From positions 1 through 25,677 of the IMG/VR virus record IMGVR_UViG_3300002052_000035: a DNA stretch of 25,677 nucleotides, one strand, 5' to 3'. The position numbers and the translations under genes are program-made. This document shows, piece after piece, positions 1 to 25,677 of the stretch. The stretch is from a virus. The notes under the pieces were generated by a model, which was not told where the DNA came from, ran no database searches, and worked only from the letters and a program-made list of their open reading frames with translations. Each line of letters begins with the position of its first letter. The stretch's first letter is position 1.

Positions 1-92
1 TCTGGAAATTATAGACATTTCAAACCCTGCCAACCCTTCGCACGCTGGTCGTTTGAATCATAGTGCCGGTGGCGCGGGACTGGATGGTGCAA
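1..92. repeat. Left copy of a 92-bp exact terminal direct repeat
   Basis: These 92 bases are identical to 25586-25677. They are LVIVD propeller coding sequence in frame 2. Identical contig ends usually mean either a circular or terminally redundant molecule, or an assembly that stopped at both copies of an internal repeat. The reading changes from propeller to unrelated sequence at exactly base 93, which favours a repeat boundary. The identity itself is seen directly; the interpretation is open. Confidence 0.97.
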
Positions 93-169
93 TAAAGGAA
101 ATGATAGAAAAATATCCCGGTAGGCCGCTAATTATCCATATGTATAATTCGAGGTATACAAATGATTAA
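2..169 (+). CDS. 3' end of an ORF: LVIVD repeat fragment fused to a short unrelated tail (partial)
   Basis: The frame is open from base 2 to a TAA at 167-169, and the 5' end is missing. The first 30 residues or so follow the LVIVD consensus (LEIIDISNPANPSHAG, then GGAGLDGA). The last 25 or so, beginning IKEMIEKYPGRPLIIH, do not resemble a propeller blade, where a strand ending in GNYAYV would be expected. If the molecule is circular, this completes the gene that starts at 24942 and gives a 270-residue protein. If not, it is a tail-gene fragment fused in frame to the C-terminus of another gene, much like 10133-10378. The stop overlaps the start of the next gene by 8 bases, which suggests translational coupling. 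Confidence 0.7.
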   Translation: MEIIDISNPANPSHAGRLNHSAGGAGLDGAIKEMIEKYPGRPLIIHMYNSRYTND

Positions 170-1088
170 ACTTGCAGTTAATATGATTGTTTTTAATTCT
201 GATTTTGTGCTAAAGCAATGTCTTGAGTCGATATATCCATTTGCATATCAAATATTGATTGTTGAGGGACCAGTAAACTATTGGCAACAACAAGGTTACA
301 CAACTTCTGCAGATAATACAAACAAAATATTACATACATTTCCAGATCCAGAGAAGAAAATAAAGATTGTACATGGACAATATCAGGAAAAAAATGAACA
401 AGCGAATGGAGCTATACAACATCTTCAACCGGAATGCGATTATCTTCTTAATCTTGACAGTGATGAGATATATAAGCCACAAGACATGAAAACTGTGCTG
501 AATCTCCTTGAAAAAGAAAAATACACATCGGTTGCATTCAAATCTTGCACTTTCTACGGCGGATTCACGCATAAATTAACAGGCTTCGAGGAAAATGTTG
601 AATTCCTTCGAATACATAAAATATATCCTGGTTCTATATGGCTAAGCCACAGACCGCCACAAGTTAAGCATTTTATACCTGTAGAACAGCAATACCCACA
701 GAAACATCTTAATATGAATATACTTGCCAACATGGGTATACGTATGTACCACTACAGTTACGTTTTCCCCCGTCAAGTCAAGGAAAAAGTCCAATATTAT
801 AAGTCGGCAGTAAGTCAGGACAATTGTATAGTTCATTACTTTGCTGATGTATATACATCATGGACGCTTGGTTCGTCTAAGATGCGAGAAATCATAGAAC
901 AGCATTATAAAGGTGTACATGAATTTAAGCCTGAATTTAGAGGTCCATGTCGTACAGAATTTTTTCAAGGAGATCACCCTGCAACAATAAAACGCGATAT
1001 GCTACAATTAAAACAGCGATTCAACGAAGAATTGCAGAAATATTGCATTCAACAAGGAAGACAACATGGAAAAAACTTGCTGGTATAA
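162..1088 (+). CDS. Family 2-type glycosyltransferase
   Basis: A 308-residue protein. The N-terminus (KLAVNMIVFNSDFVLKQCLE) matches the first strand and helix of GT-A fold family 2 enzymes, with the usual 'N-x-x-ES' spacing into a loop. A DxD-type metal/nucleotide-sugar site is visible at about residues 98-102 (LDSDE), in the expected place after strand 4. No membrane segment is seen, so it is probably cytoplasmic. Enzymes of this type transfer a sugar from a nucleotide-sugar to an acceptor; donor and acceptor cannot be told here. The ATG at 162 overlaps the upstream stop, and the gene overlaps the next by 23 bases. It is the first of five GT2-like genes in the cassette. Confidence 0.8.
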   Translation: MIKLAVNMIVFNSDFVLKQCLESIYPFAYQILIVEGPVNYWQQQGYTTSADNTNKILHTFPDPEKKIKIVHGQYQEKNEQANGAIQHLQPECDYLLNLDSDEIYKPQDMKTVLNLLEKEKYTSVAFKSCTFYGGFTHKLTGFEENVEFLRIHKIYPGSIWLSHRPPQVKHFIPVEQQYPQKHLNMNILANMGIRMYHYSYVFPRQVKEKVQYYKSAVSQDNCIVHYFADVYTSWTLGSSKMREIIEQHYKGVHEFKPEFRGPCRTEFFQGDHPATIKRDMLQLKQRFNEELQKYCIQQGRQHGKNLLV

Positions 1089-1707
1089 AGAAGAATGTTG
1101 CAATGAAATGATTAGGGGTGCTCGTGGTGAACTGTGGCCTACGCTTGACAAATCAAATCATTGGTATATTTTGGAAGATTTGCTGCGTATAGTTTACGGC
1201 CAAACTACACCATTGTTATTAGATTTGGGCTGCGGGGCTGGGGATTTACAAAACCAACAGATTGTTAGGGATCGATATGAATATTATGGCGCAGATTTGT
1301 CGAATGTGATCAATAATGTGGCTTTGGAAATGAATCCACGAGGCGAATATGTCAAATGTGATGTTATCAAAGACATGAACATAGATTTCATATCCATATT
1401 TGATGTTGTTGTAATGAATGCATTAATAGATGTTATGGAACATCCTATCTACATATTAGGCAAGATCTTGAAACAATGCAAGAAATATGTTATTATTCAT
1501 AGGCAAAATCTTACTGAGAAAGAAACCTATATTACCACACAAACTTCTTACGGCGGGATTACCAACATTTCGCATATCAACAAAAAAAAATTTTTTGACA
1601 TAATTTCTCGACATAAGTTTGATATAATTAGTTTAAAGAAGACGGGGCTTACCTCGGAAAACCACAGCTTATTGTTGAAAAGGAGAGAAACATATAAAAA
1701 ACAATAA
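1066..1707 (+). CDS. Class I SAM-dependent methyltransferase
   Basis: A 213-residue protein with a clear SAM-binding motif I, LLDLGCGAGD at about residues 51-60, and an acidic post-I strand (YYGADLS, about 74-80). These are followed by FDVVVMNALIDVMEHP, where the core strand 4 region with a 'D-x-x-EH' type ending is expected. The C-terminal half (Asn-Ile-Ser-His, then FFDIISRHKFDI) fits the Methyltransf_11/25 layout. The start at 1066 lies within the end of the glycosyltransferase gene and has AAGGA about 8 bases upstream. The substrate is unknown; the setting suggests sugar or glycan O-/N-methylation. The first 30 residues contain three cysteines and are not typical of the family. Confidence 0.82.
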   Translation: MEKTCWYKEECCNEMIRGARGELWPTLDKSNHWYILEDLLRIVYGQTTPLLLDLGCGAGDLQNQQIVRDRYEYYGADLSNVINNVALEMNPRGEYVKCDVIKDMNIDFISIFDVVVMNALIDVMEHPIYILGKILKQCKKYVIIHRQNLTEKETYITTQTSYGGITNISHINKKKFFDIISRHKFDIISLKKTGLTSENHSLLLKRRETYKKQ

Positions 1708-1995: not shown

Positions 1996-2232
1996 ATGAA
2001 TACAGTAATAGCATTTATCGCTATATTTGGTTTTTTGGGTTTTATAAGTCTTATAAGTGCAATACTTGCTGAAATATTTTGTCATTGGAAAAGTGAGCTA
2101 CCTGGGAAATTATTTTTATTTTTTTTATTGTTCTCGATATTATTTTTAGCGGGTATGGGAATAATTCTAGATTACGACGCGAAACATACAAAACAATGCA
2201 AACAACAAAATGGGAATTATAATTGTGAATAA
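1996..2232 (+). CDS. Small two-helix membrane protein
   Basis: A 78-residue protein with two strongly hydrophobic segments, about residues 4-28 (IAFIAIFGFLGFISLISAIL) and 39-61 (LFLFFLLFSILFLAGMGIIL). They are separated by a short loop containing Cys-His-Trp-Lys, and the tail is hydrophilic with cysteines. A very good ribosome binding site (AAGGAGAAG) lies just upstream. The family is not recognised. A holin-like or small inner-membrane partner of the glycan enzymes are possible roles, but nothing decides between them. The last 23 bases overlap the start of the following fusion gene. Confidence 0.65.
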   Translation: MNTVIAFIAIFGFLGFISLISAILAEIFCHWKSELPGKLFLFFLLFSILFLAGMGIILDYDAKHTKQCKQQNGNYNCE

Positions 2233-3769
2233 GATACCTTTATATATACATATACCAAGAACGGGAGGTACATTTCTTCGGGAATATTTCAGAAAATGTT
2301 GTCCTGGAATACAGATACACGAGCATAATCGTGTGCGAGATCTTACAAATCCAGATCAATATTGGAAATTCGCTTTTGTGAGAAACCCATGGGATTGGTA
2401 CGTGTCTCGTTATTTCTATTTTTGCAGGAAGCACATAAATGAGCAGGGCGTGTCAATCCGTTGTGATTCTGGATTGTTTGGTAATGCATTTCAAGAAAAA
2501 TTTCCCACATTAAAATCACATTTATTGTGGGGAGCCAATGATAGAATACCGGGTTTTTGGTTAACCGATCGTCTTATAGACATGTGTTGGGTAAATGGAT
2601 ATGATGAAATAGATTATTATGGTAGATATGAAGAAATGGAATCATGTGTGAAGACAATACTTGATTATTGTTCAATTAAACCAAAAAAGACAATACCGGA
2701 ATTTTTGTCCGATCCAGATAATCTTAGATATAAAAATTCAACAATACATGAACATTATTCAGAATATTATGACGAAGAATTGAAGCGACTTGTTGCCGAA
2801 AAAGATGATATATTTCTCAATAAGAGATTATTTTCTTATTGCGATTGGAAAATATATAAATTCGAAGATAAAAAAAAACGATATAATTTCTGTACAGTCT
2901 CCGATATAAAATATCTGAACCAGGGATTATGTATGTATGATTCCCTGGTTCGATATTCTAAAACTGATTTCACTCTATATTATCTATGCATTGATAGAGA
3001 ATCATATGTGAGATTGCAATCTCTCGATCTACCCAACGTTGTAGTAATGTGCGCTCGCTATGTAGACGAGTTCAACAACTACGATAATAGGCTATACCAA
3101 GGTTATTGTTGGAGCTTGGCATCAAGATTATGTAATTATTTGCTTAATACCAAAGAGATAGACGATATTCTATATGTCGATTCAGATATTGTATTCTACG
3201 AAGGTATTGAGAATATATATAATGATGTCAAAAAAGGTTCAATAGGAATAATACCACATCTTCATGTATCAGTAGGGTGCACGGTTGGAGGATATAATGT
3301 CGGTATAATATATTTCCGAAACAATGAAATTGGACGTGAATGTTGTCAATTTTGGACTAATTGTGTGTTAGGAAAATATCAAGAATATATAGGAAAATAT
3401 GATACCTGCGGAGATCAAAAATTTCTTGAATTATTTGAGCAAAAATGGGAAAAAGATGTTATAATAATAGGAGAGACCACAGGGCACGGAGCGCCGTGGA
3501 ATTTATTCCTATATAAATATGATAATTTTTCAATTGAAAATAAGATAATATCGTTTAAGTCTCCGCCGATTATACGAAATTTAAGAACGTACGGAGAAAA
3601 TAAATTGATTTTTTGCCATTTTGCTGGATTTACTCCTGATTATGAGAATAATACATATGCCGCAACAAAGGAGAGATTTAATGAGAATTTTTTGAATATT
3701 CCTGCATGTAGAAAAATATATAACGAGTATTTTCAATTGATGAAAGAAACCTACGAAAGATATTATTAA
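2210..3769 (+). CDS. Sulfotransferase-like / glycosyltransferase (GT8-like) fusion protein
   Basis: A 519-residue, two-domain protein. Residues about 8-215 look like a P-loop sulfotransferase. HIPRTGGTFLREYF (14-27) matches the 5'-phosphosulfate loop of the 'HIPKTGGT' family, and FVRNPWDWYVSRY (56-68) matches the 3'-phosphate binding motif. Residues about 224-519 look like a GT-A glycosyltransferase of the GT8 kind: a DxD motif in ILYVDSDIVF (320-329), YNVGIIYFRNN (362-372) where GT8 has a 'FNSG' strand, GDQ (401-403), and a late HFAGF (470-474) resembling the terminal metal-binding His region. A protein of this layout could add both sulfate and sugar to one glycan; that is inference. An alternative start is GTG 2225, closer to the first conserved strand. 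No strong ribosome binding site decides between them. Confidence 0.75.
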   Translation: MGIIIVNKIPLYIHIPRTGGTFLREYFRKCCPGIQIHEHNRVRDLTNPDQYWKFAFVRNPWDWYVSRYFYFCRKHINEQGVSIRCDSGLFGNAFQEKFPTLKSHLLWGANDRIPGFWLTDRLIDMCWVNGYDEIDYYGRYEEMESCVKTILDYCSIKPKKTIPEFLSDPDNLRYKNSTIHEHYSEYYDEELKRLVAEKDDIFLNKRLFSYCDWKIYKFEDKKKRYNFCTVSDIKYLNQGLCMYDSLVRYSKTDFTLYYLCIDRESYVRLQSLDLPNVVVMCARYVDEFNNYDNRLYQGYCWSLASRLCNYLLNTKEIDDILYVDSDIVFYEGIENIYNDVKKGSIGIIPHLHVSVGCTVGGYNVGIIYFRNNEIGRECCQFWTNCVLGKYQEYIGKYDTCGDQKFLELFEQKWEKDVIIIGETTGHGAPWNLFLYKYDNFSIENKIISFKSPPIIRNLRTYGENKLIFCHFAGFTPDYENNTYAATKERFNENFLNIPACRKIYNEYFQLMKETYERYY

Positions 3770-4874: not shown

Positions 4875-5521
4875 TACAACGAATCAAAGAATGCAGAATA
4901 CAATTAAGCAATATCTGCAATCTTTCAACTAGACATCTTGCGTGTCCGGCGTCAAAAGAAGAAAAAGAACAATATTTACCACTTAAAAACATCATGAATT
5001 GTATTATTCAACTTAGACAATTAGATTACAAGGGTGATTTAGGGTTTCATATTTATAATGAGCCATTATTAGACCCCAGGTTGTTATATATTCTTGACTT
5101 TACACGCCATGTGTTGCTTAATAAAATAATTATATGGTCAAACAAAACATTATATACCGATGAATTGGGCGAGGAAATAAAAAAGTTTGGCAATATACAT
5201 TTTGTTTTTTCGGACTATTTATTGCCCCACCATTTGGATAATCGGCTTACTATATACCGCGATTCTGCACATCCGATTATCAATAAACGGTGTCTGCAAC
5301 CATATTACCAACTTAACATCAATTATAATGGCGATGTAGTCTTGTGTTGTTATGATTGGAAATGGACAAAAACATATGGTAATATCAAAAGACAAAAATT
5401 AGAAGATATATTAATTTCTGAGAAGATGAATTGTGACTATAGAAACCTAAAACAAGGCGAGTTATTTAAGTTTTGCACTAATTGTACAGTAAACTTTGGA
5501 GATAATAATGCAGCATTATGA
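4856..5521 (+). CDS. Radical SAM/SPASM-like protein with an unusual cysteine motif
   Basis: About 221 residues. I chose TTG 4856 because GGAG lies 6 bases upstream; TTG 4844 is the alternative. The N-terminus (RIQLSNICNLSTRHLACPAS) aligns with the opening strand of radical SAM enzymes. However, instead of CxxxCxxC it shows Cys21-x8-Cys30, with another Cys at 13. The C-terminal half is a convincing SPASM-type region: NYNGDVVLCCYDW, GNIKRQKLEDIL, then FKFCTNC. These auxiliary cysteines normally hold a second iron-sulfur cluster. The substrate is unknown. It overlaps the cupin gene upstream and the methyltransferase gene downstream, so translation is probably coupled. Confidence 0.65.
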   Translation: MQNKKIIQRIKECRIQLSNICNLSTRHLACPASKEEKEQYLPLKNIMNCIIQLRQLDYKGDLGFHIYNEPLLDPRLLYILDFTRHVLLNKIIIWSNKTLYTDELGEEIKKFGNIHFVFSDYLLPHHLDNRLTIYRDSAHPIINKRCLQPYYQLNINYNGDVVLCCYDWKWTKTYGNIKRQKLEDILISEKMNCDYRNLKQGELFKFCTNCTVNFGDNNAAL

Positions 5522-6062
5522 TAATATAGATAGAACTGCGAGCTTAAAACGAATCGTGCCGGATTTATATGATTATAAAACGGTATTATATGTAGGCGCT
5601 CGACCAGATAGACACGATTATTTGGAAGATTTTCACAAAGCAAATTACAAAATTGATGTGATTGAAATATGGCATCCAAATGTAAAATGGTTAAGAGCGC
5701 TACCGTGGATTAATCGTGTTTATCATATCAACTTTAAAAAGTTTTTTGCTGAATATTATTTATATTATAGTCATTTGAAGTACGATATCATATTTCTTTG
5801 GCACGTTATTGAACACATTTACATGCCGGAAATAGAATATATTTTTACCAAGCGTTTATTTGAACAAGTGGCAAAAAAAATAATCGTCATAGGGTGCCCC
5901 TGGGGTGTATATCATCAGGGAGAGATGGGTGGAAATCCAGACGAGGCACATGTTAGTCATTTAGATTATCAAATTTTTGAGAAATACGGATACCAAGTTG
6001 AATGTTTGGGTAAACAGAATTATATAGGATCAAATATTACGGCGATAAAAAAAATAAAATGA
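5508..6062 (+). CDS. Methyltransferase-like protein (class I fold)
   Basis: 184 residues from ATG 5508, chosen because GGAG lies 6 bases upstream; an upstream TTG at 5496 is in frame but has no such signal. VLYVGARPDR fits a modified motif I, with an aromatic-Val-Gly-Ala core in place of the glycine-rich loop. DVIEI is the acidic strand 2. FLWHVIEHI matches the 'D/W-x-x-EH' strand-4 end of Methyltransf_11/23 enzymes. KKIIVIGCPWG is the strand-5 region where methyltransferases have a proline. A later part mentions Glu-Ala-His-Val-Ser-His, again typical of small SAM methyltransferases. The SAM-binding loop is less glycine-rich than usual, so activity is uncertain. Confidence 0.65.
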   Translation: MQHYDNIDRTASLKRIVPDLYDYKTVLYVGARPDRHDYLEDFHKANYKIDVIEIWHPNVKWLRALPWINRVYHINFKKFFAEYYLYYSHLKYDIIFLWHVIEHIYMPEIEYIFTKRLFEQVAKKIIVIGCPWGVYHQGEMGGNPDEAHVSHLDYQIFEKYGYQVECLGKQNYIGSNITAIKKIK

Positions 6063-9416: not shown

Positions 9417-10136
9417 ATGAATAATACTGCCTTATTGGTTAACACAGGGGATCAGTCTAATAAAATCTGGAAATATTGGTATAAATATTATATACAAAAC
9501 TGGTCTTGTTCTGGTTTTATTGATACTGTATTTTTGTCAGAAGAGATGAAATTAGATGATGTTTTGTGCCGAAAAACTGAAATTATTAATACAACAACTG
9601 GTAAGATTGATTGGGCATCTGGTTTAATTAACTATCTTTTGAAATGTCATTATCAATATATAATACTCGTTCATGAAGATTATTTTTTAACCGAATCTAC
9701 TTGGGCAAACATTGCCAAATATCTTATAGATTTTGTTCAGAAACATGATATTAAATTATTAAAATGTTGTGGTTGGTGGGCTGGGTATATAGACGAAAAC
9801 GCACCAATGGTAGAAGATGAATCATTGCCTTTGTTTGTTGGCGAAAAGGTTAAAAAGGTTATATGGAGATACAACAACGAATCACAATATCTTATATCTC
9901 ACCAAACATCAATATGGAGCAAAGATTTTTTGCTTAGCACACTGAAGGCCGGGGAGTCACCGTGGGAGCATGAGATAATCGGTACATTAAGACTCAGAGA
10001 ACGCAATATACCCATATATGCATATCGTGATAAATGTCCATTTGAGTATGGCGAAACAGTTCAACAAAACAAAGTGCGCCCGGGTTGTGGTCATTATTTT
10101 GATGGTGAATTTAATGATGGAGATTCTATATTATGA
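9417..10136 (+). CDS. Glycosyltransferase-like protein (GT-A type, family uncertain)
   Basis: 239 residues from ATG 9417; GTG 9402 in frame is possible. IILVHEDYFLTE (about 79-90) sits where GT-A enzymes have their DxD strand, here as H-E-D. SHQTSIWSKDFLLSTL followed by ESPWEHEIIGTLRLRE resembles a phage and viral group in which a 'q-x-x-lW' strand is followed by 'E-x-PW-x-x-E'. I recall that combination from putative glycosyltransferases, but I cannot confirm the family. There is no membrane segment. The stop overlaps the next start (ATGA). Confidence 0.5.
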   Translation: MNNTALLVNTGDQSNKIWKYWYKYYIQNWSCSGFIDTVFLSEEMKLDDVLCRKTEIINTTTGKIDWASGLINYLLKCHYQYIILVHEDYFLTESTWANIAKYLIDFVQKHDIKLLKCCGWWAGYIDENAPMVEDESLPLFVGEKVKKVIWRYNNESQYLISHQTSIWSKDFLLSTLKAGESPWEHEIIGTLRLRERNIPIYAYRDKCPFEYGETVQQNKVRPGCGHYFDGEFNDGDSIL

Positions 10137-10378
10137 TTGACGCATTATTGTTAGCACTGATTGGCGGCTTTGTATATTGGTTGTGTTGTCGTGCGGTTAA
10201 GTATTATGACAATCATAAAAAGGATCAAAGCACAACCAACGTTGCCATGCCCCAATTATCAGAAGATGAATTTGACAGACTTAACGCAAAAGCGAAAGAA
10301 CTTGGATCAACGACTGTGTTTACGGCAAAACAAGTCGGAGATGCATTCCTCGAAATACGCGGATTGTATCTGAGATAG
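10133..10378 (+). CDS. Small membrane protein ending in a copied piece of the tape measure protein
   Basis: An 81-residue protein made of two parts. Residues 1-30 hold one membrane segment (DALLLALIGGFVYWLCC) followed by a basic stretch. Residues about 44-78 are nearly identical to residues 112-148 of the tape measure protein encoded at 14418 (EFDRLNAKAKELGSTTVFTA and onward). The reading frame is kept through the copy. The ATG overlaps the preceding stop (ATGA). The first part alone looks like a phage inner-membrane peptide of unknown role. The fusion is probably a recombination product, and whether it still works is unclear. Confidence 0.6.
   Translation: MIDALLLALIGGFVYWLCCRAVKYYDNHKKDQSTTNVAMPQLSEDEFDRLNAKAKELGSTTVFTAKQVGDAFLEIRGLYLR
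10264..10365 (+). repeat. 102-bp copy of an internal part of the tape measure gene
   Basis: Compared with 14753-14860, this stretch differs by a single substitution (T at 10335, C at 14824) and a 6-base in-frame deletion (14846-14851 missing). Sequence on both sides is unrelated. The difference from the source argues against a simple assembly duplication. The copy lies near the right border of the glycan cassette. Confidence 0.95.
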
Positions 10379-14081: not shown

Positions 14082-14428
14082 CAGCCAGGTTCAGGGCTGG
14101 ATTTTGGGGGAAGATTAAATATCAATGTACATCATGTAACAATAACCAAAATTATAAATCCGCATGGGGCTGCATAAAGAAAAGTAAAATGGCCGAACCT
14201 ACTTTTGCAGAAAAAATTAATGGAATAGAATATAAATATTGGAATTGTCCAGTGAAATTTATCCCAGACAGTATTTATGGTTTTTTGAAAATTTATGATT
14301 ATTATAAAACATTTCCAGGGGCGAAAATTTCAAGCTACGACAATGTTTCTGCGAGATTTCTCAAAGCGACACAATATTATAATGTACAATATTCGGAGGC
14401 GATGGATGAAATGATAGATGGCAAGTGA
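13587..14428 (+). CDS. Tail assembly chaperone, -1 frameshifted long form (gpGT-like)
   Basis: After GGT-TTA at 14070-14075 the ribosome can slip back one base and read AGA-ATA-GCA onward. That frame stays open without a stop to TGA 14426-14428 and gives a 280-residue protein (163 residues of the short form plus 117). The added part begins RIAARFRAGFWGK, then has CTSC and a later WGC and YWNCPVKFIP. It continues into the sequence that could start at ATG 14189, but that ATG has no ribosome binding site, so expression by frameshift is more likely than a separate gene. The extension ends inside the tape measure start, as in other siphophages. Confidence 0.8.
14069..14099 (+). promoter_or_regulatory. 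Programmed -1 frameshift signal GGGTTTA plus hairpin
   Basis: G-GGT-TTA fits the X-XXY-YYZ rule in the chaperone frame (codons TTG GGT TTA). Six bases downstream CAGCC (14082-14086) pairs with GGCTG (14095-14099) around an 8-base loop and includes the zero-frame stop TAG just before it. Slippery site, spacing and hairpin all agree with known phage chaperone frameshifts. Only two codons separate the slippery site from the zero-frame stop, which is usual. Confidence 0.85.
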
Positions 14429-17213
14429 AGTGTTGGCCGTAGAAGCCAGATTAAAAGATTATATATCAAATAATCTAGATACAATCAATAACAAATTAAA
14501 CGAATTTTCCCAAAAGGGGAGAAATAGTTTTAATAAAGTCTCCAAATCTAGCTCATTTCTCAGTAGAGCATTTTCAGGAACTAAAGATTCTCTAATTAAT
14601 TTTGCAAAACAATTCGGCCCCGCTGCTGCTGCCGTTACTATCTTAACTTCGACATTATTAAAAATCAAAAATACTATTAATTTTGTGCAGGAAGTTACGA
14701 TTGATTTTGAAAAAACAATGTCAACTGTAAAAGCGATATTGGTTCCAACCGCAGATGAATTTGACAGACTTAACGCAAAAGCGAAAGAACTTGGATCAAC
14801 GACTGTGTTTACGGCAAAACAAGCCGGAGATGCATTCCTCGAAATGGGGAAACGCGGATTTAAAGTAACGCAAACTCTTGATGCTGTTGAGGGAGTCCTT
14901 GACTTAGCTGCTGCCGCACAAATTAGTCTTTCCGAGGCCGCATCTGCGACGGTAGCGACACTCAATCAATTTGGCCTTGCTGCAAGCGAATCGACAAGAG
15001 TTGCCGATGTAATGACAGCAGCCTTCAGCAAATCCGGTTTAAATATGTTTAACTTTACAGAGGCAATGAAGTTTGTTGGGCCAATAGCTGGACAAGTAAA
15101 TGTTTCTCTAGAGCAAACAACAGGGCTTCTTGGTGTATTGGCCGACAGAGAAATCAAGGGATCTCTTGCTGCAACTGGTTTGCGAACAATATTTTTAGAA
15201 TTGGCTAATAGCAATTCGAAAGTTAATGAAATGTTAAGGCAAAATGGAGTATATACAGATGATGTAATAAAAAAGCTTGAAGCTTTAAGCAAGATGAATC
15301 TTACTGTTACCGATACAACGGAATATTTTTCTGTGCGCGCGACTGCAACAGCGCAGGTAATACTTAATAATATAGGAGCAGCTCAAAACTTAACAGGAGC
15401 GTTAAAAGACGTCGATAAATACTCAAAAACAGTGGCAAATACAATGCTTGATAATGTTGCTGGCGCCACTACGCTACTTAAATCTGCCCAGGAGGGGCTT
15501 GCGCTTGCTATAGGAGAAACGTTTAAAGAAGCGAAAGTTGAAAGATTGCGAGTGTATACTAAAATAATTAACAAAGCCAGAGATTATATTATACAGCATA
15601 AAGACAAATTACAAGCGCTTGCAAATGTAGCCCAAAAAACATTTATGTCACTTATAAAATTTGGGAAATATTTATGCGATATGTTTAAAAGCGATTTCGC
15701 AGATCTTGCGGAATCCGTATTGACATTAATTAAAGTTATATTTGGATATGTAAAAGATTTTTTTTCAACATTTAAGGAGCCGATAGTTGCAGCTTTAAAA
15801 TTTATACGCGATGCAATTAAAACAATATTACAAGTTGTTAATTATTTTGCAAAAACGATAACGGCCCTTTTCGGTCTTGTTAAAACAGGATTATTGACAC
15901 TTGTAGAATATTTTTTTAGGGCTGTTGAAGGAATAGGTAAAGCTATCAATTGGATATCAAAAAAATTAAAAGGCAAAGAAGTTTTTGACTTATCAGGAAT
16001 ACAGGAAAAAATTGAAAAATTAAAAGCATCAGCACAGGAATCAGCAGATAAAATATATATCGCATTAAGTGGCAGTAAAGCCGTATCGGCTTTAGAAATA
16101 AATGTTGACAAAGCAAAAAAAATGATAAAAGAAGTCTCTTCACTACCTATACTACCACCTATACCACCAACAATTCCAACTGCTGCTGTTACTCCTGCCC
16201 CTGTCGTTTCTCCGGAAGAGGAAATTAAAATATTAGAAGAAAAGCTGGCTGCCAACAAATTCTATCAAGACTTAATTATCCAAAATATGCAAGCAGGCAT
16301 TGTAAAAGAAAAAGCTATTGCAAAATTAAAAAGAGAAGAAGATTATGCGCAGGCACAACAATGGCATGACAAAAAAATTATTGATAATAAAAGACTTGGT
16401 GAATTACGCATAGAAATAAAGCAACAATATGAGGATAAAATTACAGAAATAGAAAAAAGTGGAATAGAAGAGCACATGGGAATGCGTATAAAATCATTTG
16501 AAAAATGGGTAGGACTTGGGAACACATTGACAAATCAATTAATGGGGTTTTTGAGCACACGTCGTAGAAACGATATTGAAGACAAAAGAGAAGAAATAGA
16601 AAGGTGGCACAAGGCTGAAACCGAAAAGATTAAATCATCTGAAAACACTGAGGATGCTAAAAAAAAATTATTAGAAAGAGTCGAAACAGAAAAACAAGCA
16701 ATGCTTAAAAAAGCAAACGAAGAAAACAAAAAACGTGCTATTGCAGAAAAGGCATTAATGATTGCGCAAGCAACCGCAGCAACGGCACTTGGTGTAACAA
16801 CAGCTTTGTCTTCATGGACATCTCCTGTGTCGAAACGTATTGCAGAAGCAGCAATAATTGGAACGGCAGGTGCTCTACAGATAGCCACAATTGCCGCACA
16901 GCGAATGCAACATGGCGGTATTGTCGGGGGAGCTACTTATACGGGTGACAAAATTCCAATAATGGCAAATTCCGGTGAAATGATGCTCAATCGAGAGCAG
17001 CAGGCCAACCTCTTCAATATGGTTAAGGGCGGTGGGAACACTACCAATAATACATCTGCGCTTAATCTTACAATTAACATACCAACAGGCACACAATTAG
17101 ACAGCAATGCAGTTGATCAAATTACAGATTCAATGGAAAAACTTAACGAAACATTATTGCAGGCCAATGAAAACGGATATCTTGAGACATTCAAATCAAG
17201 TGTAGGATTATAA
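14418..17213 (+). CDS. Tail tape measure protein (TP901 type)
   Basis: A 931-residue protein. Residues about 90-300 are the conserved TP901-type core: FDRLNAKAKELGSTTVFTA, FLEMGKRGFKV, LNQFGLAASESTRVADVM, IAGQVNVSLEQTTGLLGVLA. Several hydrophobic helices follow near 430-515 (VIFGYVKDFF; ALFGLVKTGLLTLVEYFF), then a proline-rich hinge near 575-600 and a long charged coiled coil. The end MQHGGIVGG with GDKIPIMANSGEMMLNREQQ is a standard tape measure C-terminus. At about 1.5 angstrom per residue the tail would be near 140 nm (inference). The protein sets tail length and is ejected with the DNA. The start overlaps the chaperone extension by 11 bases. A short copy of residues 112-148 lies at 10264-10365. 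Confidence 0.95.
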   Translation: MASEVLAVEARLKDYISNNLDTINNKLNEFSQKGRNSFNKVSKSSSFLSRAFSGTKDSLINFAKQFGPAAAAVTILTSTLLKIKNTINFVQEVTIDFEKTMSTVKAILVPTADEFDRLNAKAKELGSTTVFTAKQAGDAFLEMGKRGFKVTQTLDAVEGVLDLAAAAQISLSEAASATVATLNQFGLAASESTRVADVMTAAFSKSGLNMFNFTEAMKFVGPIAGQVNVSLEQTTGLLGVLADREIKGSLAATGLRTIFLELANSNSKVNEMLRQNGVYTDDVIKKLEALSKMNLTVTDTTEYFSVRATATAQVILNNIGAAQNLTGALKDVDKYSKTVANTMLDNVAGATTLLKSAQEGLALAIGETFKEAKVERLRVYTKIINKARDYIIQHKDKLQALANVAQKTFMSLIKFGKYLCDMFKSDFADLAESVLTLIKVIFGYVKDFFSTFKEPIVAALKFIRDAIKTILQVVNYFAKTITALFGLVKTGLLTLVEYFFRAVEGIGKAINWISKKLKGKEVFDLSGIQEKIEKLKASAQESADKIYIALSGSKAVSALEINVDKAKKMIKEVSSLPILPPIPPTIPTAAVTPAPVVSPEEEIKILEEKLAANKFYQDLIIQNMQAGIVKEKAIAKLKREEDYAQAQQWHDKKIIDNKRLGELRIEIKQQYEDKITEIEKSGIEEHMGMRIKSFEKWVGLGNTLTNQLMGFLSTRRRNDIEDKREEIERWHKAETEKIKSSENTEDAKKKLLERVETEKQAMLKKANEENKKRAIAEKALMIAQATAATALGVTTALSSWTSPVSKRIAEAAIIGTAGALQIATIAAQRMQHGGIVGGATYTGDKIPIMANSGEMMLNREQQANLFNMVKGGGNTTNNTSALNLTINIPTGTQLDSNAVDQITDSMEKLNETLLQANENGYLETFKSSVGL
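14753..14860 (+). repeat. Tape measure segment copied at 10264-10365
   Basis: This is the intact version of the repeat: it keeps the six bases (GGGGAA, 14846-14851) absent from the other copy and continues as normal tape measure coding sequence on both sides, so it is the likely source. It encodes a well conserved helix of the tape measure core. Confidence 0.95.
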
Positions 17214-19111
17214 TGGCTGATTATGCATATATTGGATCATATGAAGGAGATTGTTTCGAAATAGTTAATGTTACAGATAGAGCAAATCCTGTACATGTTG
17301 GTAGGCTTGATAATGGGGTAGGTGGAGCGGGCTTAGTTGAGCCAAGATGCGTAAGAATACAAGGGAATTATGCATATGTCGCCAGCTATATTTCAAATTG
17401 TATGGAAATAATTAGTATATCCGATCCTGCCAACCCTTCACACGCTGCAAAAATAAGTCATGGCGGAGATATTTTGCTTAATGGCCCATATCATCTTTTT
17501 ATTGACAATAACTATGCATATGTAGTATCTGTGCTATCTAATTCTCTTGAAATAATAGATATATCAAGCCCAACAAGTCCGGCACATATGGGATCAATTA
17601 TCCACGGAACCGGTGGTGCTCAGATATCTAATCCTACCAGTATATGTGTTGTTGGTAATTATGCTTATATTACATCATATGCTACAAATTATTTAGAGAT
17701 TGTTGATATAACCAACAAGACTTCACCGGAACATAAAGGCAATATAGTACATGAAGAAGGTGGTGCAGTATTAGACGGGGTAAGAGATGTGGTTGTTGTT
17801 GGTAATTATGCATATGTGGTATCATACGGTTCTAATGCGCTTGAAATAGTTGATATTACCGATCCTGCGAATCCTTTACATAAAGGAAAAATATCACATG
17901 GAGATGGTGGGGCATTAATTGCCAGCCCAACAGGAATATGTGTAAAGAATAATTTTGCATATGTCGCTTCTTATGGCTCAAGCGCTCTTGAAATAATAGA
18001 TATCTCCGATCCCGCAAATCCGGTTCACGCTGGAAAAATAATTAACGAAGAAGGGGGCGCAGCATTATATCAACCAATTTCTGTAATAGTAGATTCTACT
18101 TATGCATATGTTGCTTCTTATGGTTCTGATGCTTTGGAAATAGTTAATATATCAGATCAAACTAGTCCGATACACGCCGGAAGTATTTTAGACGGGGCAG
18201 GGGGTGCTGGGCTAAATGGGGCATGGGGAATACATTTATCGGGGATAATAGAAAATAAATTAGAGTTTGAAGATACAGATGGCAACAAAATCATGGTCTC
18301 GTTGCCGGTTTTTCCATATAAAACATCGATTGAATTTCCGTTTGATATACAAAAATTAAATGATGGCTCGTACTCTTCGTATGATCATGGTTCAACATAT
18401 GATATTAGAAAATGCGAATGCACATTTATTTTGGATGAAGGGGAAACATTAACATTTTTAGAATTTTTTACTAACGAATATGAATATGGAGTCAATAAGG
18501 GTCGTGCTTTTGATGTGACAATGCGTCCGACAGTAAGCAATAGTGGCTTTTTCCCATTCGGGCCGGATAAAGGTAACAATGGCGACTTCGATGTTGGTGT
18601 TATCATAAAAAATATATCTCGCATAGGAAATGCGCCTTATTTATATTTTCACATTGATGTCTTAATCATTAATACTGGCTCATGGCCAACATATTCGTTA
18701 CCGTCCGAGGTGTCAGAAGGTTCCTTAACAATTGGTAATGTGTCTAATAATAGATTTCCCCCTAATTGGTTCAATCCATCTGGGGGGTATGGTTATTTTG
18801 GAACTGTATTACAAGATGGATCTATTGAATGGATTGATAGATTCGAGGGCGCTGATCATTATCAAACATCTTTCAATATGGTTTCCAACGAATCGAAAAC
18901 AGCGAAAGTAATTGAATATATAACAGGTACTGCACGAGATGATAATTTTTCGATTGTCAGTGGAAATAATATATTTCCATTTGGGAAAAATATCCCCGAC
19001 AATAAAACATATACAGTAAAAATGATACAAAACAAGATAGATATTACGCATGTACGACATGATAGATTTGAATATAGTCTAAAGCTGGCATATATTAGTT
19101 ATACAGGGTAA
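17213..19111 (+). CDS. Seven-bladed LVIVD propeller fused to a distal tail-like protein
   Basis: A 632-residue protein. Residues 4-345 are seven repeats of 48-49 residues, each with YAYVxSY, then xLEIIDISDPANP, then an H-x-G and a GGA-x-L stretch, and a closing hydrophobic strand. This is the LVIVD repeat (COG5276), which folds as a beta-propeller. Residues about 352-632 (KIMVSLPVFPYKTSIEFPFD; FTILDEGETLTFLEFF-like strands; YTVKMIQNKIDI) are a beta-rich tail domain. The gene lies where the distal tail gene follows the tape measure. The start overlaps the previous stop (TAATG). I infer a tail-tip component with the propeller displayed outward, perhaps for binding a surface. A propeller at the N-terminus of a distal tail protein is not something I know from model phages. 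Confidence 0.75.
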   Translation: MADYAYIGSYEGDCFEIVNVTDRANPVHVGRLDNGVGGAGLVEPRCVRIQGNYAYVASYISNCMEIISISDPANPSHAAKISHGGDILLNGPYHLFIDNNYAYVVSVLSNSLEIIDISSPTSPAHMGSIIHGTGGAQISNPTSICVVGNYAYITSYATNYLEIVDITNKTSPEHKGNIVHEEGGAVLDGVRDVVVVGNYAYVVSYGSNALEIVDITDPANPLHKGKISHGDGGALIASPTGICVKNNFAYVASYGSSALEIIDISDPANPVHAGKIINEEGGAALYQPISVIVDSTYAYVASYGSDALEIVNISDQTSPIHAGSILDGAGGAGLNGAWGIHLSGIIENKLEFEDTDGNKIMVSLPVFPYKTSIEFPFDIQKLNDGSYSSYDHGSTYDIRKCECTFILDEGETLTFLEFFTNEYEYGVNKGRAFDVTMRPTVSNSGFFPFGPDKGNNGDFDVGVIIKNISRIGNAPYLYFHIDVLIINTGSWPTYSLPSEVSEGSLTIGNVSNNRFPPNWFNPSGGYGYFGTVLQDGSIEWIDRFEGADHYQTSFNMVSNESKTAKVIEYITGTARDDNFSIVSGNNIFPFGKNIPDNKTYTVKMIQNKIDITHVRHDRFEYSLKLAYISYTG

Positions 19112-19113
19112 TT

Positions 19114-22100
19114 ATGGCAACAAGTAGCATATTTTTTGGGATTAAAATAATATTACAGGATCATGACAATCCGATTTCTGAAAATACGTCTATTGGATTA
19201 TATAATTGCAATTCTGCATTAACCGCGAATGCCAATTCGGGTCAAAAAAATGTTACCGTTGCTGCCGGTACCACTTTTGAAATAAACGAAGTAGTAACAA
19301 TCAAAGATGATAATGCTTCAGAAACGAATATTATAGCTAGTAAAGTTGGTAACGTTCTCACAATGAGAAATAATCTGCAAAATACATATACCACAACAGA
19401 CAATGGTATCGTACACGCAAATTCGAAATTCAGATGGTGCCAGAACCCAAGGTCTAGTTTTCAGGATTGGAATACCGATATGTTGGTACAGAACGGTATT
19501 GCCCCCTGGACAAAACAGATAGATCTTTCTCGTGGTGGCAATATTTCTCAAGGGGGTAGCGGAAAAATAACGGTCAAAAATACATCTCAATTGTGGAATA
19601 CGTTAGAAACAAATTCAATATATTTCAATCGATTAAAAGCCGAGATATGGGAAATTGAAGGGCAAGAAACTCAGGCTCTTGGAACATTAATGATATATAC
19701 AAGACGATGGGTTGGAATGTGCGAAAGTCCTTCTTGGGATTCAAAACAATATACAATTCCTTTACGCAATTTTTTTTCACAGCGCAATGTTAATTTTGGC
19801 ACACAAATTAATCAAACAGATTATCCAAATGCAAATAATGATTTAGTAGGAAACGATATACCTATTACGATCGGAGAAATAAAAACAATATTAAGCGATG
19901 ACGTTGTTGTATATAATGGGTATGCAAAAGCTGTGCGTACCGGAAACAAAGAAACTCAATTTGTAATGACAGATGAATACCAGACTATGAACGCAGCGAC
20001 TGTGTTAAAAGCAAAGTTAGACACACCGAGTGGCCCGATAGACACATTTCCGGTACTTAATGATACACACTATGAGCCACACATTAAAATAGGAACAAGC
20101 GTACTTTGGACTTTAGATGGAGTTCCAATTTCATCTGGGAGTTATCCAGTCACAGCATTAAATGGTCAAATAATCAATATGCTTATGGGTTCAGCTGAAG
20201 GCGATTTTAGAAAAATAGAAAGTGTTGTTTTAGACTTTGGTACCGATGCTTTTGGCGGCACACTAGAATTGGTTGTTGATGATTATTATAGCGAAGAATT
20301 AAGCGGAAATTCTACTGCAACCGATGTGGATAATTCTTGGTGTGAAATTTCAGATATTAAGCGAATATATCATTTAGATACATGGCCTTGCAAAGATTTT
20401 ATTGATAAAGATGGCAATGTGCTGTCAGAGTTTCCAGAATTATATGAATATACGGATAATCCCAAAATAGAAACAACAGTATCTGGATCAGCAGAAACAA
20501 TTAAAGAAAGAGTATTGACAAAACCATACGATTTTTTAAAGATCTCAAATCATTCATTTGAGATTGAAGATGTGAGTAATAAAAATACTTTTGAAATTGA
20601 TGTTAAACATTTAACAAAATCAAAAGATACTCTTAATAGCTATATTTTATTAACATCTACCAATGTTGAATTACTTGGCGCAAATGCTTTTGATTTAGAT
20701 GATGAATGGGAATTTCCAGGCTACCAGACTGAAGGCGTTGGATATGTCACATCTGGCGAAGGGGCAACATATGATTTAGCTCTACAATCTGGTAGTTTAA
20801 GCAATACGATCGACAAAGATTTTGATTCTCTTGTTGAATATAGAATAACCGCCAATATTACAACTACCACGAAAGCATTATTAGCCTTTAAAATAACTCC
20901 GCCAATAATCACAACAGATTTTGACAGCGTATATATGGGAATCCATCATTATAATGATGTTAGTTCGGCTAATTATGAGTATAAATTAGATCTTTTTGTT
21001 AAGAGCAGACATTGGATGGGATTGGCAAAACAGGTTTTTACAAACGAAATACAATCTATGGGCACTGGTTCTTCCACGGTATATGATATACCAGATTTTT
21101 ATTTCGAAACAAATCGGCCTTCCTTAAGAAACGCATGGTTTTTTCATGAAGAAGATTCTAATGGATTATTATCAGGTTACAAATTGTTTGAATTAAGCGA
21201 CATTAATACAAAAGAAAAGTTTAATAATATGCAGGAAATAGGATTATTTTTAGAATATACCAATACGGTAGCTGCAGATGCGGAACACTTAGATGCTACT
21301 ATTAGAGATGTGTGCTTCATTTTTGTGCGAAGAGCGACGATAGAAAATGAAATTTATACTCCAATGAAAGGCCGTATATATAATGATACCTGGGGTGGTC
21401 GCGTTACTTCAACAGATATGATAGAAGCGCCGCATAGAGTTTTTGAGCATTTTACTCGGTTACAGAATTTTGGGGATTCGAGCTTTCCACCGAGCGCGGG
21501 ATGGGGGCAAGATTATGCTAATGGTGCCCTTATTCAAACATCGGGCGAAGGTGGTATTGATGAATCTGTAGACTCTAACTATAGTACCATTATGGGATAT
21601 AACATGGCATTTCAGATATTGGATTATAGCAAGAAAACAACCAATTGGGTTAAAAAAATAATATGTCAAAATTATTTCTTGGCAAATTGGGTAAATTCTG
21701 ATGGATATGAGTGTCTCAAAAGTATTCGATATGATGAAAATGTTACGCCGAGCGAGTTGGTTACGTTGGCTGACATTGTTGACCGTAATAAATTGCAAGT
21801 AATTGAACCATCTCCATTAGACATATACCCAGAACCCTATATTCAATATCGCAAAAACAACGCGAATGGAAAATTCGAAGGATTAATAAAAGTAACCCAT
21901 GCCGACGCTGATACGTATGATTCAAGCTATGTAATAGGTATGACCGGTGCCGCGGCAGAAACGCTCTGGAATAATTGTCATACTCTATGGACTAAATGTA
22001 AAAGCATTAATCCACCACCACAAGAATTGACTGAGCTATTGGGCGCAAATGGCGATGACGCTGATACACAAGCACAAGCATATATTTCCAATTGGGTATC

Positions 22101-22407
22101 TTGGCAATTTAATAAAAAATGCGTCATCAATGTGCATTATAGCAAAGCGAAAACTTGGGAAGAGGCATATAAATTTCATCTTCAATTACCACACCAAACC
22201 AATAATTTAATTTGGGAATGTGTTATAACCAAAATCACCAAAGACCCAAACCCACCATATGTGATTACAATTGAGGCGGTTATGATACACGAATCTGTGG
22301 TTGAAGAATACATCAAAGATAATTATACAGCATATGGAAATAATAACGACTGGAAAGATACATATACAGTATATGGTAATGATCAAGACAAAAAAGATAA
22401 TATGTAG
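19114..22407 (+). CDS. Large tail hub/tip-like protein
   Basis: A 1097-residue protein in the place of the central tail hub. A small beta domain near residues 30-90 (VTVAAGTTFEINEVVTI; ETNIIASKVGNVLTM) is followed by a long region with features of tail-tip proteins: PNANNDLVGNDIPITIGEI (near 245-265) resembles the 'D-x-iG-x-pIPI-x-yG' motif of hub proteins. The sequence is rich in short beta strands and has no membrane segment or obvious peptidase motif. The C-terminal 200 residues include Trp- and Tyr-rich stretches and end in a duplicated 'YTAYGNNNDWKDTYTVYGND' pattern. It probably forms the tip through which DNA leaves. Confidence 0.6.
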   Translation: MATSSIFFGIKIILQDHDNPISENTSIGLYNCNSALTANANSGQKNVTVAAGTTFEINEVVTIKDDNASETNIIASKVGNVLTMRNNLQNTYTTTDNGIVHANSKFRWCQNPRSSFQDWNTDMLVQNGIAPWTKQIDLSRGGNISQGGSGKITVKNTSQLWNTLETNSIYFNRLKAEIWEIEGQETQALGTLMIYTRRWVGMCESPSWDSKQYTIPLRNFFSQRNVNFGTQINQTDYPNANNDLVGNDIPITIGEIKTILSDDVVVYNGYAKAVRTGNKETQFVMTDEYQTMNAATVLKAKLDTPSGPIDTFPVLNDTHYEPHIKIGTSVLWTLDGVPISSGSYPVTALNGQIINMLMGSAEGDFRKIESVVLDFGTDAFGGTLELVVDDYYSEELSGNSTATDVDNSWCEISDIKRIYHLDTWPCKDFIDKDGNVLSEFPELYEYTDNPKIETTVSGSAETIKERVLTKPYDFLKISNHSFEIEDVSNKNTFEIDVKHLTKSKDTLNSYILLTSTNVELLGANAFDLDDEWEFPGYQTEGVGYVTSGEGATYDLALQSGSLSNTIDKDFDSLVEYRITANITTTTKALLAFKITPPIITTDFDSVYMGIHHYNDVSSANYEYKLDLFVKSRHWMGLAKQVFTNEIQSMGTGSSTVYDIPDFYFETNRPSLRNAWFFHEEDSNGLLSGYKLFELSDINTKEKFNNMQEIGLFLEYTNTVAADAEHLDATIRDVCFIFVRRATIENEIYTPMKGRIYNDTWGGRVTSTDMIEAPHRVFEHFTRLQNFGDSSFPPSAGWGQDYANGALIQTSGEGGIDESVDSNYSTIMGYNMAFQILDYSKKTTNWVKKIICQNYFLANWVNSDGYECLKSIRYDENVTPSELVTLADIVDRNKLQVIEPSPLDIYPEPYIQYRKNNANGKFEGLIKVTHADADTYDSSYVIGMTGAAAETLWNNCHTLWTKCKSINPPPQELTELLGANGDDADTQAQAYISNWVSWQFNKKCVINVHYSKAKTWEEAYKFHLQLPHQTNNLIWECVITKITKDPNPPYVITIEAVMIHESVVEEYIKDNYTAYGNNNDWKDTYTVYGNDQDKKDNM

Positions 22408-22415
22408 GGGGTACA

Positions 22416-22817
22416 ATGGCAATAGAGGGATTTGAATTAACATGTAGACCAGATCTGGAATTGCGTATAGATATTCGGTATGCTGGATATGAAAGACGAA
22501 TAAATCGTAAATTTTTTATTAAGCGCGCCAAAGAAAAGGCATCAAAAATAATTACCGAAGAAAAGGTTGAAGAAAAATACCAAGAAAATTATAATGCTAT
22601 GCTGAATTATATTAATGATAGACCTTATTTTTCAGAACGGACTAAAAAAATAAAAAGACAATCATTAAAATCAAAAGAGACAGTCAAAAAAATGAAATTA
22701 ATGGCCCGCAATCGCCTTATAGCCATAAAACAAAAAGAATTGGGTGAAAAAGAATTTGAAATATATTTTAATACAGTGATTAAGGCGTTGAATAAATTCG
22801 CAGAAGAAGTGAAATAA
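22416..22817 (+). CDS. Small basic helical protein of unknown function
   Basis: A 133-residue protein rich in Lys and Glu. After a short beta-like start (FELTCRPDLELRIDIRYAGY) it is almost entirely helical (KKIKRQSLKSKETVKKMKLM; IKQKELGEKEFEIYF). AGGGGG lies 4 bases before the ATG, and the stop overlaps the fibre start (TAATG). The family is not recognised. Position between hub and fibre suggests a minor tail or tail-assembly protein. Confidence 0.55.
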   Translation: MAIEGFELTCRPDLELRIDIRYAGYERRINRKFFIKRAKEKASKIITEEKVEEKYQENYNAMLNYINDRPYFSERTKKIKRQSLKSKETVKKMKLMARNRLIAIKQKELGEKEFEIYFNTVIKALNKFAEEVK

Positions 22818-24649
22818 TGGCACAAAACGTACACATTGAACATATAGACGATACGTTTGCCAACGTATACGCTAATCTGGATCTAAGCCAAATTGCAATT
22901 CTGACTGACCAAAATGAAGAATTTGTATGGATGAATGATGATGCGAGTAAACTATATTTTGCTGCTGCTCAGAAATATTATGATGGTTCATATACATATA
23001 TGAATGCCGATTTTGCGCAAGTCGAATGCCACGACGATCTTCTGCTTGACGAATACATCAAACATTCTGGTGATACGGATACATTAATACGTTTTGAAAC
23101 AGATAAAATAACCCTTCAGGCTGGTAGCGGCGATTATATTGTCATAGAACCTACAAAAATATATACAACCACACCGTTCGGATGGGAAACGGATTCTCCA
23201 AGTGGAGACTTGCATCTTTACAAAGGGAGTGCTGCTGAAGTGTTGCTGAAAATATCAAATGCAACAGCAGGTTTGCTTTCAACTGATGGATTAGATATTG
23301 GAATAGATGGTAGCGCAAATGCATTTTTCAAAAACCGTGAAAACACTTCATTGACATTATACACAAATAACACAGAACGTATTACGTTATTGAATAATGG
23401 TAACGTTGGTATTAATGAATCGAGTCCAGAAACAATAGTAGAAATATCTGCTGCTGAGGCATATTTAACTTTACAAAATGTGACTAATGAATCTGGCGTT
23501 GGTTTGCGTGAAACACAGATAAGAGGGAAGGGACATCAATCAGATACGACAGAATACGAACTCGGTAGAATAGAATTTTCACAAAGTGATATTGGCAACG
23601 GAGAAGATAAAAGCGGAAGAATTGTATTACATACTTATGGCAATGGTTCGTTGAATCCGTGGATATATCTTATAGATACTGGACGCTTAGGATTGGGGGG
23701 AGAATCGACTCCTGTCACAATGATAGAATTGACCGATTCAGCTCCATATTTTACATTACACAACAACACACATGAAGACGTAGATTGGGGCAGAGAATCA
23801 CGAATAATAGCTCGCGGTGAACAATCTGGCGGGGAAGAATCTATTTTGGGTATGCTTGAAATATCTCATTATGGATCTTCTGATGATGAAAATGGGCGTG
23901 TTACAATTAAAGTAAATGATGGAAATGATGGGGTTTCTCCAACTAATAGATTAATAATTAATTCATTTGGACGTGTTGCTATTGGTGACGCAATTGATCC
24001 ATCATATTTGTTACATCTTCTAAGTTCGGCTACTCCAGATATTATATTTCATAACACAACTCATAGCGATAATGACGGCTGGAGAAAAAGTATTATACAA
24101 TATCGAGGCGAAAAGGGTGATGGAACAGAACACACTTTGGTTTCTTTGGCTGGGTCTCATTTTGGTTCTGGCGATGATGAAAAGGGAAAATTTGTAATAT
24201 CTACAAATGACGGCAATGATAGCGAATCGCCTTCAGAATCTCTTACAATTGATTCAGATGGAGGCCAAAAGCGAAGATATAATGTTTTCGAATATACAGA
24301 AACATGCACGGGAAGTATGAGCTATACACTTGATTATGATATGAATGCAACCAATACGTATGGTAGCTTAACTGTGGTGGTCGGAGGACGAAAGACAATG
24401 GCAGGGCCATCTTATACCCACGCAACATGCTATGATATACATCGTTTTGAACTCGAAAACAATGTTTTAAACGTAAGTAAAGTGTCTTTAGATATTGGTT
24501 CAAATGTTAAAACGACTTTGACTGCTATAGGTAGTGGAGACCAGTTACGAATTACAGCCGAAGAAGAACCGAATGGCGGAACACAATATGATTATGATGT
24601 TTTTATCAGATTTGTTGTTTATGGGACAACAAGTATTACAAAAGTATAA
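22817..24649 (+). CDS. Tail fibre-like protein with three internal repeats
   Basis: A 610-residue protein. NGNVGINESSPETIVEI (about 195-211) matches the 'G-x-VGIGT-x-x-P-x-x-L' repeat of phage and bacterial fibres. Three repeats of about 90 residues follow, each with an 'A/P-Y-x-T-L-x-N-x-T' strand, 'RGEQSGGEESILGMLEISHYGS', 'DDENGRVTI', and an ending 'GRVAIGD'. The C-terminal 130 residues (from about YNVFEYTETCTGSMSYTLDY) form a different beta domain. No Peptidase_S74 chaperone end is visible. The repeats probably form a trimeric shaft and the last domain the tip that binds the host. Confidence 0.7.
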   Translation: MAQNVHIEHIDDTFANVYANLDLSQIAILTDQNEEFVWMNDDASKLYFAAAQKYYDGSYTYMNADFAQVECHDDLLLDEYIKHSGDTDTLIRFETDKITLQAGSGDYIVIEPTKIYTTTPFGWETDSPSGDLHLYKGSAAEVLLKISNATAGLLSTDGLDIGIDGSANAFFKNRENTSLTLYTNNTERITLLNNGNVGINESSPETIVEISAAEAYLTLQNVTNESGVGLRETQIRGKGHQSDTTEYELGRIEFSQSDIGNGEDKSGRIVLHTYGNGSLNPWIYLIDTGRLGLGGESTPVTMIELTDSAPYFTLHNNTHEDVDWGRESRIIARGEQSGGEESILGMLEISHYGSSDDENGRVTIKVNDGNDGVSPTNRLIINSFGRVAIGDAIDPSYLLHLLSSATPDIIFHNTTHSDNDGWRKSIIQYRGEKGDGTEHTLVSLAGSHFGSGDDEKGKFVISTNDGNDSESPSESLTIDSDGGQKRRYNVFEYTETCTGSMSYTLDYDMNATNTYGSLTVVVGGRKTMAGPSYTHATCYDIHRFELENNVLNVSKVSLDIGSNVKTTLTAIGSGDQLRITAEEEPNGGTQYDYDVFIRFVVYGTTSITKV

Positions 24650-24941: not shown

Positions 24942-25677
24942 ATGGGTGTTATATCACGATATGCGTTTTGCACAGCGTACGATGGCGATAATCTTGAAAT
25001 TATTGATATATTAGATCCGGCCAATCCCGCACATAAGGGAAAAATAGTTGACGGAGCCGATGGTGCTGGACTTAATGCCCCCCGTGGGTTATTTGTGTCT
25101 GGCAATTACGTATATGTTGCATCATATTCATCCAATTGCTTAGAAATAATAGATATATCTGATCCGGCCAACCCCACACACAAGGGGCGTATTAATGATG
25201 GTGCTGGGGGTGCTGGTTTAAGTGGTGTCAGCGATGTTTATGTTGTTGGTAATTACGCATATGTGACGAGCTATTTATCTGATTGTCTAGAAATTGTAGA
25301 TATTTCAAACCCGGCTAGCCCAACTCACAAAGGAATTATTAGTAATGGAGCCGGAGGCGCGGGATTAGATGGGGCTCGTAGTGTGTTTGTTGTTGGTAAT
25401 TACGCATATGTAGCAGCTTATCTTTCTGATTGTCTAGAAATTGTAGATATTTCAAACCCTGCTAGTCCAATACATGCGGGTATACTTAATGACGGAGATG
25501 GCGGTGCGGGTCTTAATGGGCCTTGTGATATATATGTATCAGGAAATCATGCATATGTTGCAAGTTATGGCGGCGGTTCGGACTGTCTGGAAATTATAGA
25601 CATTTCAAACCCTGCCAACCCTTCGCACGCTGGTCGTTTGAATCATAGTGCCGGTGGCGCGGGACTGGATGGTGCAA
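24942..25677 (+). CDS. Second LVIVD-repeat propeller protein (3' end missing)
   Basis: The frame is open from ATG 24942 to the last base. Blades begin at Tyr codons 24960, 25107, 25254 and 25401 and at a His codon 25548, a strict 147-base (49-residue) period. Each has 'LEIVDISNPASP' and 'GGAGL-x-G' cores. Blade 5 carries two extra glycines. Only about 4.7 blades fit before the end, whereas the propeller at 17213 has seven, so about two more are expected. Joined to 93-169 across the ends, the product would be 270 residues. GGAGG (24920-24924) fits an ATG at 24935 better, but that frame stops after 18 codons; 24942 gives the propeller. No other domain is seen in the visible part. Confidence 0.8.
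   Translation, partial: MGVISRYAFCTAYDGDNLEIIDILDPANPAHKGKIVDGADGAGLNAPRGLFVSGNYVYVASYSSNCLEIIDISDPANPTHKGRINDGAGGAGLSGVSDVYVVGNYAYVTSYLSDCLEIVDISNPASPTHKGIISNGAGGAGLDGARSVFVVGNYAYVAAYLSDCLEIVDISNPASPIHAGILNDGDGGAGLNGPCDIYVSGNHAYVASYGGGSDCLEIIDISNPANPSHAGRLNHSAGGAGLDGA
24960..25677 (+). repeat. Tandem 147-bp repeats within the propeller gene
   Basis: Four full units and part of a fifth are present. Some words are exactly repeated at 147-base spacing, for example TGTTGTTGGTAATTACGCAT at 25241 and 25388, and a long stretch around GTCTAGAAATTGTAGATATT in neighbouring units. Such near-exact repeats allow slippage or recombination and can mislead an assembler. Confidence 0.85.
25586..25677. repeat. 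Right copy of the 92-bp exact terminal direct repeat
   Basis: Identical to 1-92. This copy is an integral part of blade 5 of the propeller gene, in frame with all earlier blades, so it is in its native setting. The left copy is the one that leads into foreign sequence. Confidence 0.97.

Follow-up and report, generated by a model that had tools for sequence, protein, structure and literature searches.

Gene content of the window and its matching ends

The window, by which we mean the whole 25,677-bp stretch analyzed here (IMG/VR record IMGVR_UViG_3300002052_000035), carries glycan-type genes from position 162 onward, after unrelated sequence 3' of its left repeat copy, as well as tail genes, among them a tape-measure gene, and two LVIVD-type beta-propeller genes, the second of which runs off the right end (Table 1). 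One member of the glycan gene cluster, a 519-residue ORF at 2210-3769, combines an N-terminal sulfotransferase match with a long C-terminal part that has no assignment. The large tail protein at 19114-22407 had no match among phage records and viral contigs. Distant (35%) relatives of propeller B were seen among the propeller-type proteins in the first 12 kb of another record, IMGVR_UViG_3300036766_002280 (118,802 bp).

Table 1. Repeat copies, propeller genes and copied gene pieces (window coordinates unless a contig is named).
Feature	Position	Strand	Description
Repeat copy 1, 94/96 bp	1..94	+	Propeller-blade fragment in a small chimeric ORF; window begins 2 bases into the repeat
Chimeric ORF, non-propeller 3' end	95..169	+	KEMIEKYPGRPLIIHMYNSRYTND, then stop; read-through in L006
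Sixth block	10042..10256	+	215 bp also in L006 2355-2569 (99.5%); within a 277-bp block missing from L014
Patch A	10264..10356	+	93 bp of tape-measure gene, in frame in small ORF 10133-10378; 92/93 bases match 14753-14845
Patch A donor	14753..14845	+	Within tape-measure gene 14418-17213 (PhageMin_Tail 1e-31)
Propeller gene A	17213..19111	+	Pfam LVIVD 2.1e-36; seven blade motifs and C-terminal domain; patch B donor
Patch B donor	17972..18041	+	In propeller A; 70 bp identical in L014 15761-15830 and L006 2223-2292, frame kept
Patch C donor	22808..22862	+	Over start of tail gene 22817-24649; 55 bp identical in L014 16230-16284 and L006 1769-1823, frame kept
Propeller gene B, 5' part, 245 residues	24942..25677	+	LVIVD-repeat beta-propeller; Pfam LVIVD 9.5e-43 (ORF 24942-25676)
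Patch D donor	25533..25677	+	Propeller B; 145 bp (99.3%) in L006 1544-1688; the repeat falls in this stretch
Repeat copy 2, 94/96 bp	25584..25677	+	Within propeller gene B; window stops 2 bases short of repeat end
Patch E	L014 2087-2146 and 8852-8911		60 bp (98%) common to two otherwise unlike ORFs, in frame; peptide FENPFNFSHMIPIQATEI

Bases 1-92 of the window equal bases 25586-25677 without a mismatch (100% identical by direct sequence comparison, as the first-pass annotation had reported), and a chance origin is far too unlikely for an exact match of 92 bases. When IMG/VR was scanned for a 36-base segment of the repeat, three other contigs were found to have it. Two end in it: L014 (3300002052_000357, 16,503 bp), whose last base is the last base of the 92, and L013 (3300002052_000243, 15,210 bp), whose first base is the first. 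In the third, L006 (3300002053_000617, 12,737 bp), the repeat is internal. L014 encodes terminase, portal, prohead protease, capsid and neck proteins; L013 encodes the C-terminal part of a propeller, a Cas4-type exonuclease, a primase-helicase and a sigma factor. On L013 there is also a serine-recombinase-like protein at 5099-5716 (N-terminal DNA-binding part; phrog_6620 transposase, 1.6e-55), while a first reading of 1439-2320 as a RecT-like protein was dropped, being without any supporting family match.

Comparison of all the contigs puts the exact repeat at 96 bp: TG, the 92 shared bases and TA, with 94 of the 96 present on each contig end. Window bases 1-92 match L014 16412-16503 exactly, bases 1-94 match L013 1-94 and L006 1542-1635, and bases 25584-25677 match L014 16410-16503. 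The left flanks diverge just 5' of window position 25584 (the base preceding the repeat is T in L014 and C in the window), and the right flanks diverge at window base 95 (the base following is A in the window and G in L013). An allele of the L006 type has C before the repeat and A after it. The first-pass annotation was thus right that the sequence changes abruptly beyond the overlap, but the change falls at base 95 and not, as it had claimed, at base 93, immediately after the 92.

Assembly breaks and the probable order of the phage genome

The window very probably comes from the middle of a tailed-phage genome some 57.1 kb long, and the circle suggested by its ends is almost certainly false, those ends being places where an assembler stopped in the 96-bp repeat. 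The repeat would occur twice in the genome: natively in propeller gene B, and as a copied fragment in a small chimeric ORF between the head and glycan modules, the 5' part of which sits on L014 (and L006). This extra copy presumably arose by the copying of a gene piece into a small ORF. A de Bruijn assembler with a largest k of 95 would be unable to traverse a repeat of 96 bp, each of the four flanking paths would halt 94 bp (k-1) into it, and each end of the window would then hold the repeat minus 2 bases, with 92 shared between the ends.

This arithmetic could be checked to the base. When de Bruijn graphs were built from the local junction strings at k = 91, 93, 95, 97 and 99, only the graph for k=95 returned all four contig ends exactly, so that repeat length and k together predict where the window begins and stops. 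The value of 95 was derived from the sequences before the published settings were consulted: assembly 3300002052, from sediment of the White Oak River estuary (sulfate-methane transition zone, site 1), was made with IDBA-UD --maxk 95, and the reads of that sample had a mean length of 129 and an insert of about 281 bp (PMC4411801). L013 and L014 belong to that assembly, and the window presumably does too. Contigs from IDBA_UD have maxK-1 bases in common at such breaks (PMC10914622). A lone circle at k=95 predicts a self-overlap of 94 bp, the length by which L013 and L014 overlap; the window shows 92, or 94+94-96, because the repeat exceeds k by one base.

The proposed order runs from L014 (terminase, portal, capsid) through the repeat into the window (glycan genes, tail), through the repeat again into L013 (propeller end, replication, sigma factor) and back to L014, for a length of 16,503 + 25,677 + 15,210 - 94 - 92 - 92 = 57,112 bp. 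The k=95 graph is also compatible with the window closed into a circle and L014 joined to L013, and is indifferent between these two connections because both yield identical k-mer sets. We prefer the L014-window-L013 order for four reasons: L006 joins the head module to the start of the window; the window and L013 complete the propeller, while the window joined to itself cuts it; the gene modules of the contigs are complementary; and L013 runs on into L014.

The first of these reasons rests on L006, which comes from a different assembly (3300002053), carries another allele of the copied fragment and crosses the left junction: it passes from the L014 head module (10 kb, 99.9%) through the chimeric ORF and the repeat to window 93-1635 (99.9%). 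As to the propeller, its 3' part lies at L013 93-328, and the window and L013 together give a single frame of 323 residues with six blade motifs and a C-terminal strand, LDGAWNVFVVE, that resembles propeller A's LNGAWGIHLSG; the window joined to itself gives five blade motifs and an unrelated tail. L013 in turn ends on the 94 bases with which L014 begins, and a pentapeptide-repeat ORF is continuous over that join (L013 14713-15210 plus L014 1-94), just upstream of the large terminase gene. The passage from the window end to L013 would be the other true junction; we infer it, since a search for a contig spanning this point found none. With that link, terminase, portal, capsid, tape-measure and replication genes stand in one connected order, by way of the repeat and the 94-bp L013/L014 overlap. 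The GC contents of the three contigs are 35%, 33% and 36%, and their tetranucleotide use is closer to each other than to that of two other phage contigs compared, with correlations among the contigs that are no more than moderate (0.41-0.57).

The first-pass annotation had preferred a false circle caused by a repeat over a real one, and the contig, k and gene-content tests all support it in this. Its count of about 4.7 blades in the joined gene was correct, as was its statement that head, terminase and replication genes are lacking in the window; these lie on the neighboring L014 and L013. It had proposed looking to the left of base 1 and for further propeller beyond 25677: to the left, L006 has the blade fragment, chimeric ORFs and then head genes, and to the right, L013 starts in the repeat and continues the same frame for 78 residues to a stop.

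Three other explanations have to be weighed. It is very unlikely that the copied fragment in L014 and L006 is an assembly chimera and that the propeller sequence is single-copy in the phage, despite the fact that sequence assembled near repeats is error-prone and that the L014 and L006 alleles are unlike in the left half of the fragment. Two assemblies agree in having the fragment with its left flank; it is bounded on both sides by unrelated sequence, which a path switch at one repeat cannot yield; the two contigs match without a difference in two more fragments (70 and 55 bp) of that stretch; and the graph would not break there if a second copy did not exist.

We consider it highly improbable that the window is a real circle of 25,585 bp, with L014 and L013 joined via the repeat as a separate 31-kb phage, even though its ends are identical and the k=95 graph allows it. 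In such a circle the propeller would break off after five blade motifs and run into an unrelated end, and head, terminase and replication genes would all be absent; the leftover L014-L013 phage would lack tape-measure and tail-tip genes and carry a chimeric propeller end, and L006 connects an L014-type head module to the window start. As for an ordinary complete genome, whether circular or with terminal redundancy, that was cut at an arbitrary position, matching ends do usually mark a complete genome (PMC8116208), but we rejected the plain circle as having next to no chance, given an overlap of 92 where k=95 calls for 94, a cut exactly at the borders of a repeat common to three other contigs, the alternative paths that exist and the absence of essential gene modules from the window.

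The circle is thus almost certainly a known type of assembly artefact that can be accounted for base by base, and the window is best read as the middle of the 57-kb phage. Searches of phage records with its terminase, tape measure or helicase found no close named phage, searches of viral contigs found only two relatives of the tape-measure protein, both distant, and the portal had no matches in bacterial and archaeal genomes.

Gene pieces copied in frame

The blade fragment in the chimeric ORF is one of five copied stretches (A-E in Table 1; 55-145 bp), all of which keep the strand and reading frame of their source. Agreement of frame in 5/5 would be expected by chance at (1/3)^5 = 0.004 under random frames, in what is a small sample. 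As far as the two assemblies show, these copied in-frame pieces appear to be real. The small ORF that holds patch A (10133-10378) gave weak matches only, the best of them mostly to tape-measure proteins; by eye, its N-terminus looks like a membrane segment. The block that includes the sixth shared stretch, a 277-bp presence/absence difference between L006 and L014, has a shared border of 7 bp.

A cluster of copies lies at L014 15728-16503 and L006 1544-2603, where the sequence is a patchwork of unrelated stretches and short segments identical to tail genes of this phage. The chimeric ORF is built in the same order on both contigs: an unrelated N-terminus is followed by the first residues of a tail protein (window 22817 on, MAQNVHIEHIDDTFA), a further unrelated part, roughly one blade and, last, more unrelated sequence. 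A search for relatives of the L006 chimeric ORF was negative. The two alleles of the copied blade differ in composition: that of L006 (1544-1688) corresponds to window 25533-25677 with one change, and so to blade 5 alone, while that of L014 (16365-16503) has blade 2 (25239-25288) joined to blade 5 (25584-25677) at the border TGTCT. This looks like a blade exchange between the copy and the full gene, and an assembly or strain effect could also account for it.

Beside control phages the copied pieces are unusual: in 10 records or contigs (353 kb), which are few and not matched by habitat, the only exact repeats of 45 bp or more lay at termini or at short range. A search for ancestral, unpatched sites of the copied patches found none, and a search of the earlier literature for reports of such patches in phages found nothing close. 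Our best guess, to which we give somewhat better than even chances, is that the pieces originated by strand-switch copying or short-homology recombination and that open frames were then selected for; that they are kept in use as a store of variants is less likely. We are doubtful of the fuller proposal that this population actively places copies of 55-145 bp from its genes, with frame and strand preserved, in small ORFs at other positions of the genome, and that the copies then swap blades with the full propeller gene, which would provide small chimeric proteins or a stock of variants. The presence in a single phage genome of several recently copied, in-frame gene pieces merits a wider survey.

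Relation to known contig classes and recombination systems

If read as circular, the window would make a puzzling element of tail and glycan genes and might be tallied among complete viruses. Most likely it is a single piece of an ordinary tailed phage, and the remaining pieces are in the same collection. CheckV defines contigs with direct terminal repeats (DTR) as those longer than 2 kb with at least 20 bp repeated at both ends (PMC8116208), and the window, with 92 bp, resembles them in both terminal match and length. It departs from them in that its ends stem from a dispersed internal repeat: its overlap is neither k nor k-1 (92 against 94 at maxk 95), its terminal sequence has other neighbors (three contigs with different flanks), and terminase, portal, capsid and replication genes, unrecognised in the window, are present on L014 and L013. 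Filters described there, against low complexity, more than five copies and proviruses, would miss a repeat that is confined to the two contig ends (PMC8116208). The closer parallel is with the breaks treated by COBRA (PMC10914622): as in those, the window breaks off at a repeat internal to the genome and overlaps several other contig ends by about k-1 bases; the difference is that the repeat is one base longer than k, giving a false self-overlap of 92 rather than 94. This shortfall of two bases is a usable mark of the artefact, and a simple check for false circles would be to compare the self-overlap with the assembler's k-1 and to look for other contigs that end in the same terminal sequence.

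The copied pieces can be set beside two further systems. In Acinetobacter baylyi, short-patch double illegitimate recombination sets short stretches from elsewhere in the genome between unrelated flanks. The patches described here likewise come from elsewhere in the genome and lie between unrelated flanks, but they belong to a phage, are long at 55-145 bp and are in frame in every case. This process is a candidate mechanism only. Reservoirs of partial tail or adhesin gene copies are used for switching. The fragments in this phage are unlike such reservoirs in that they are embedded in other ORFs, and the piece from the tape-measure gene, among others, is not readily recognisable as part of an adhesin; the fragments are like such reservoirs in being partial copies, elsewhere in the genome, of a repeat-built and possibly host-facing gene, and in that the L014 and L006 alleles differ as though blades had been exchanged.
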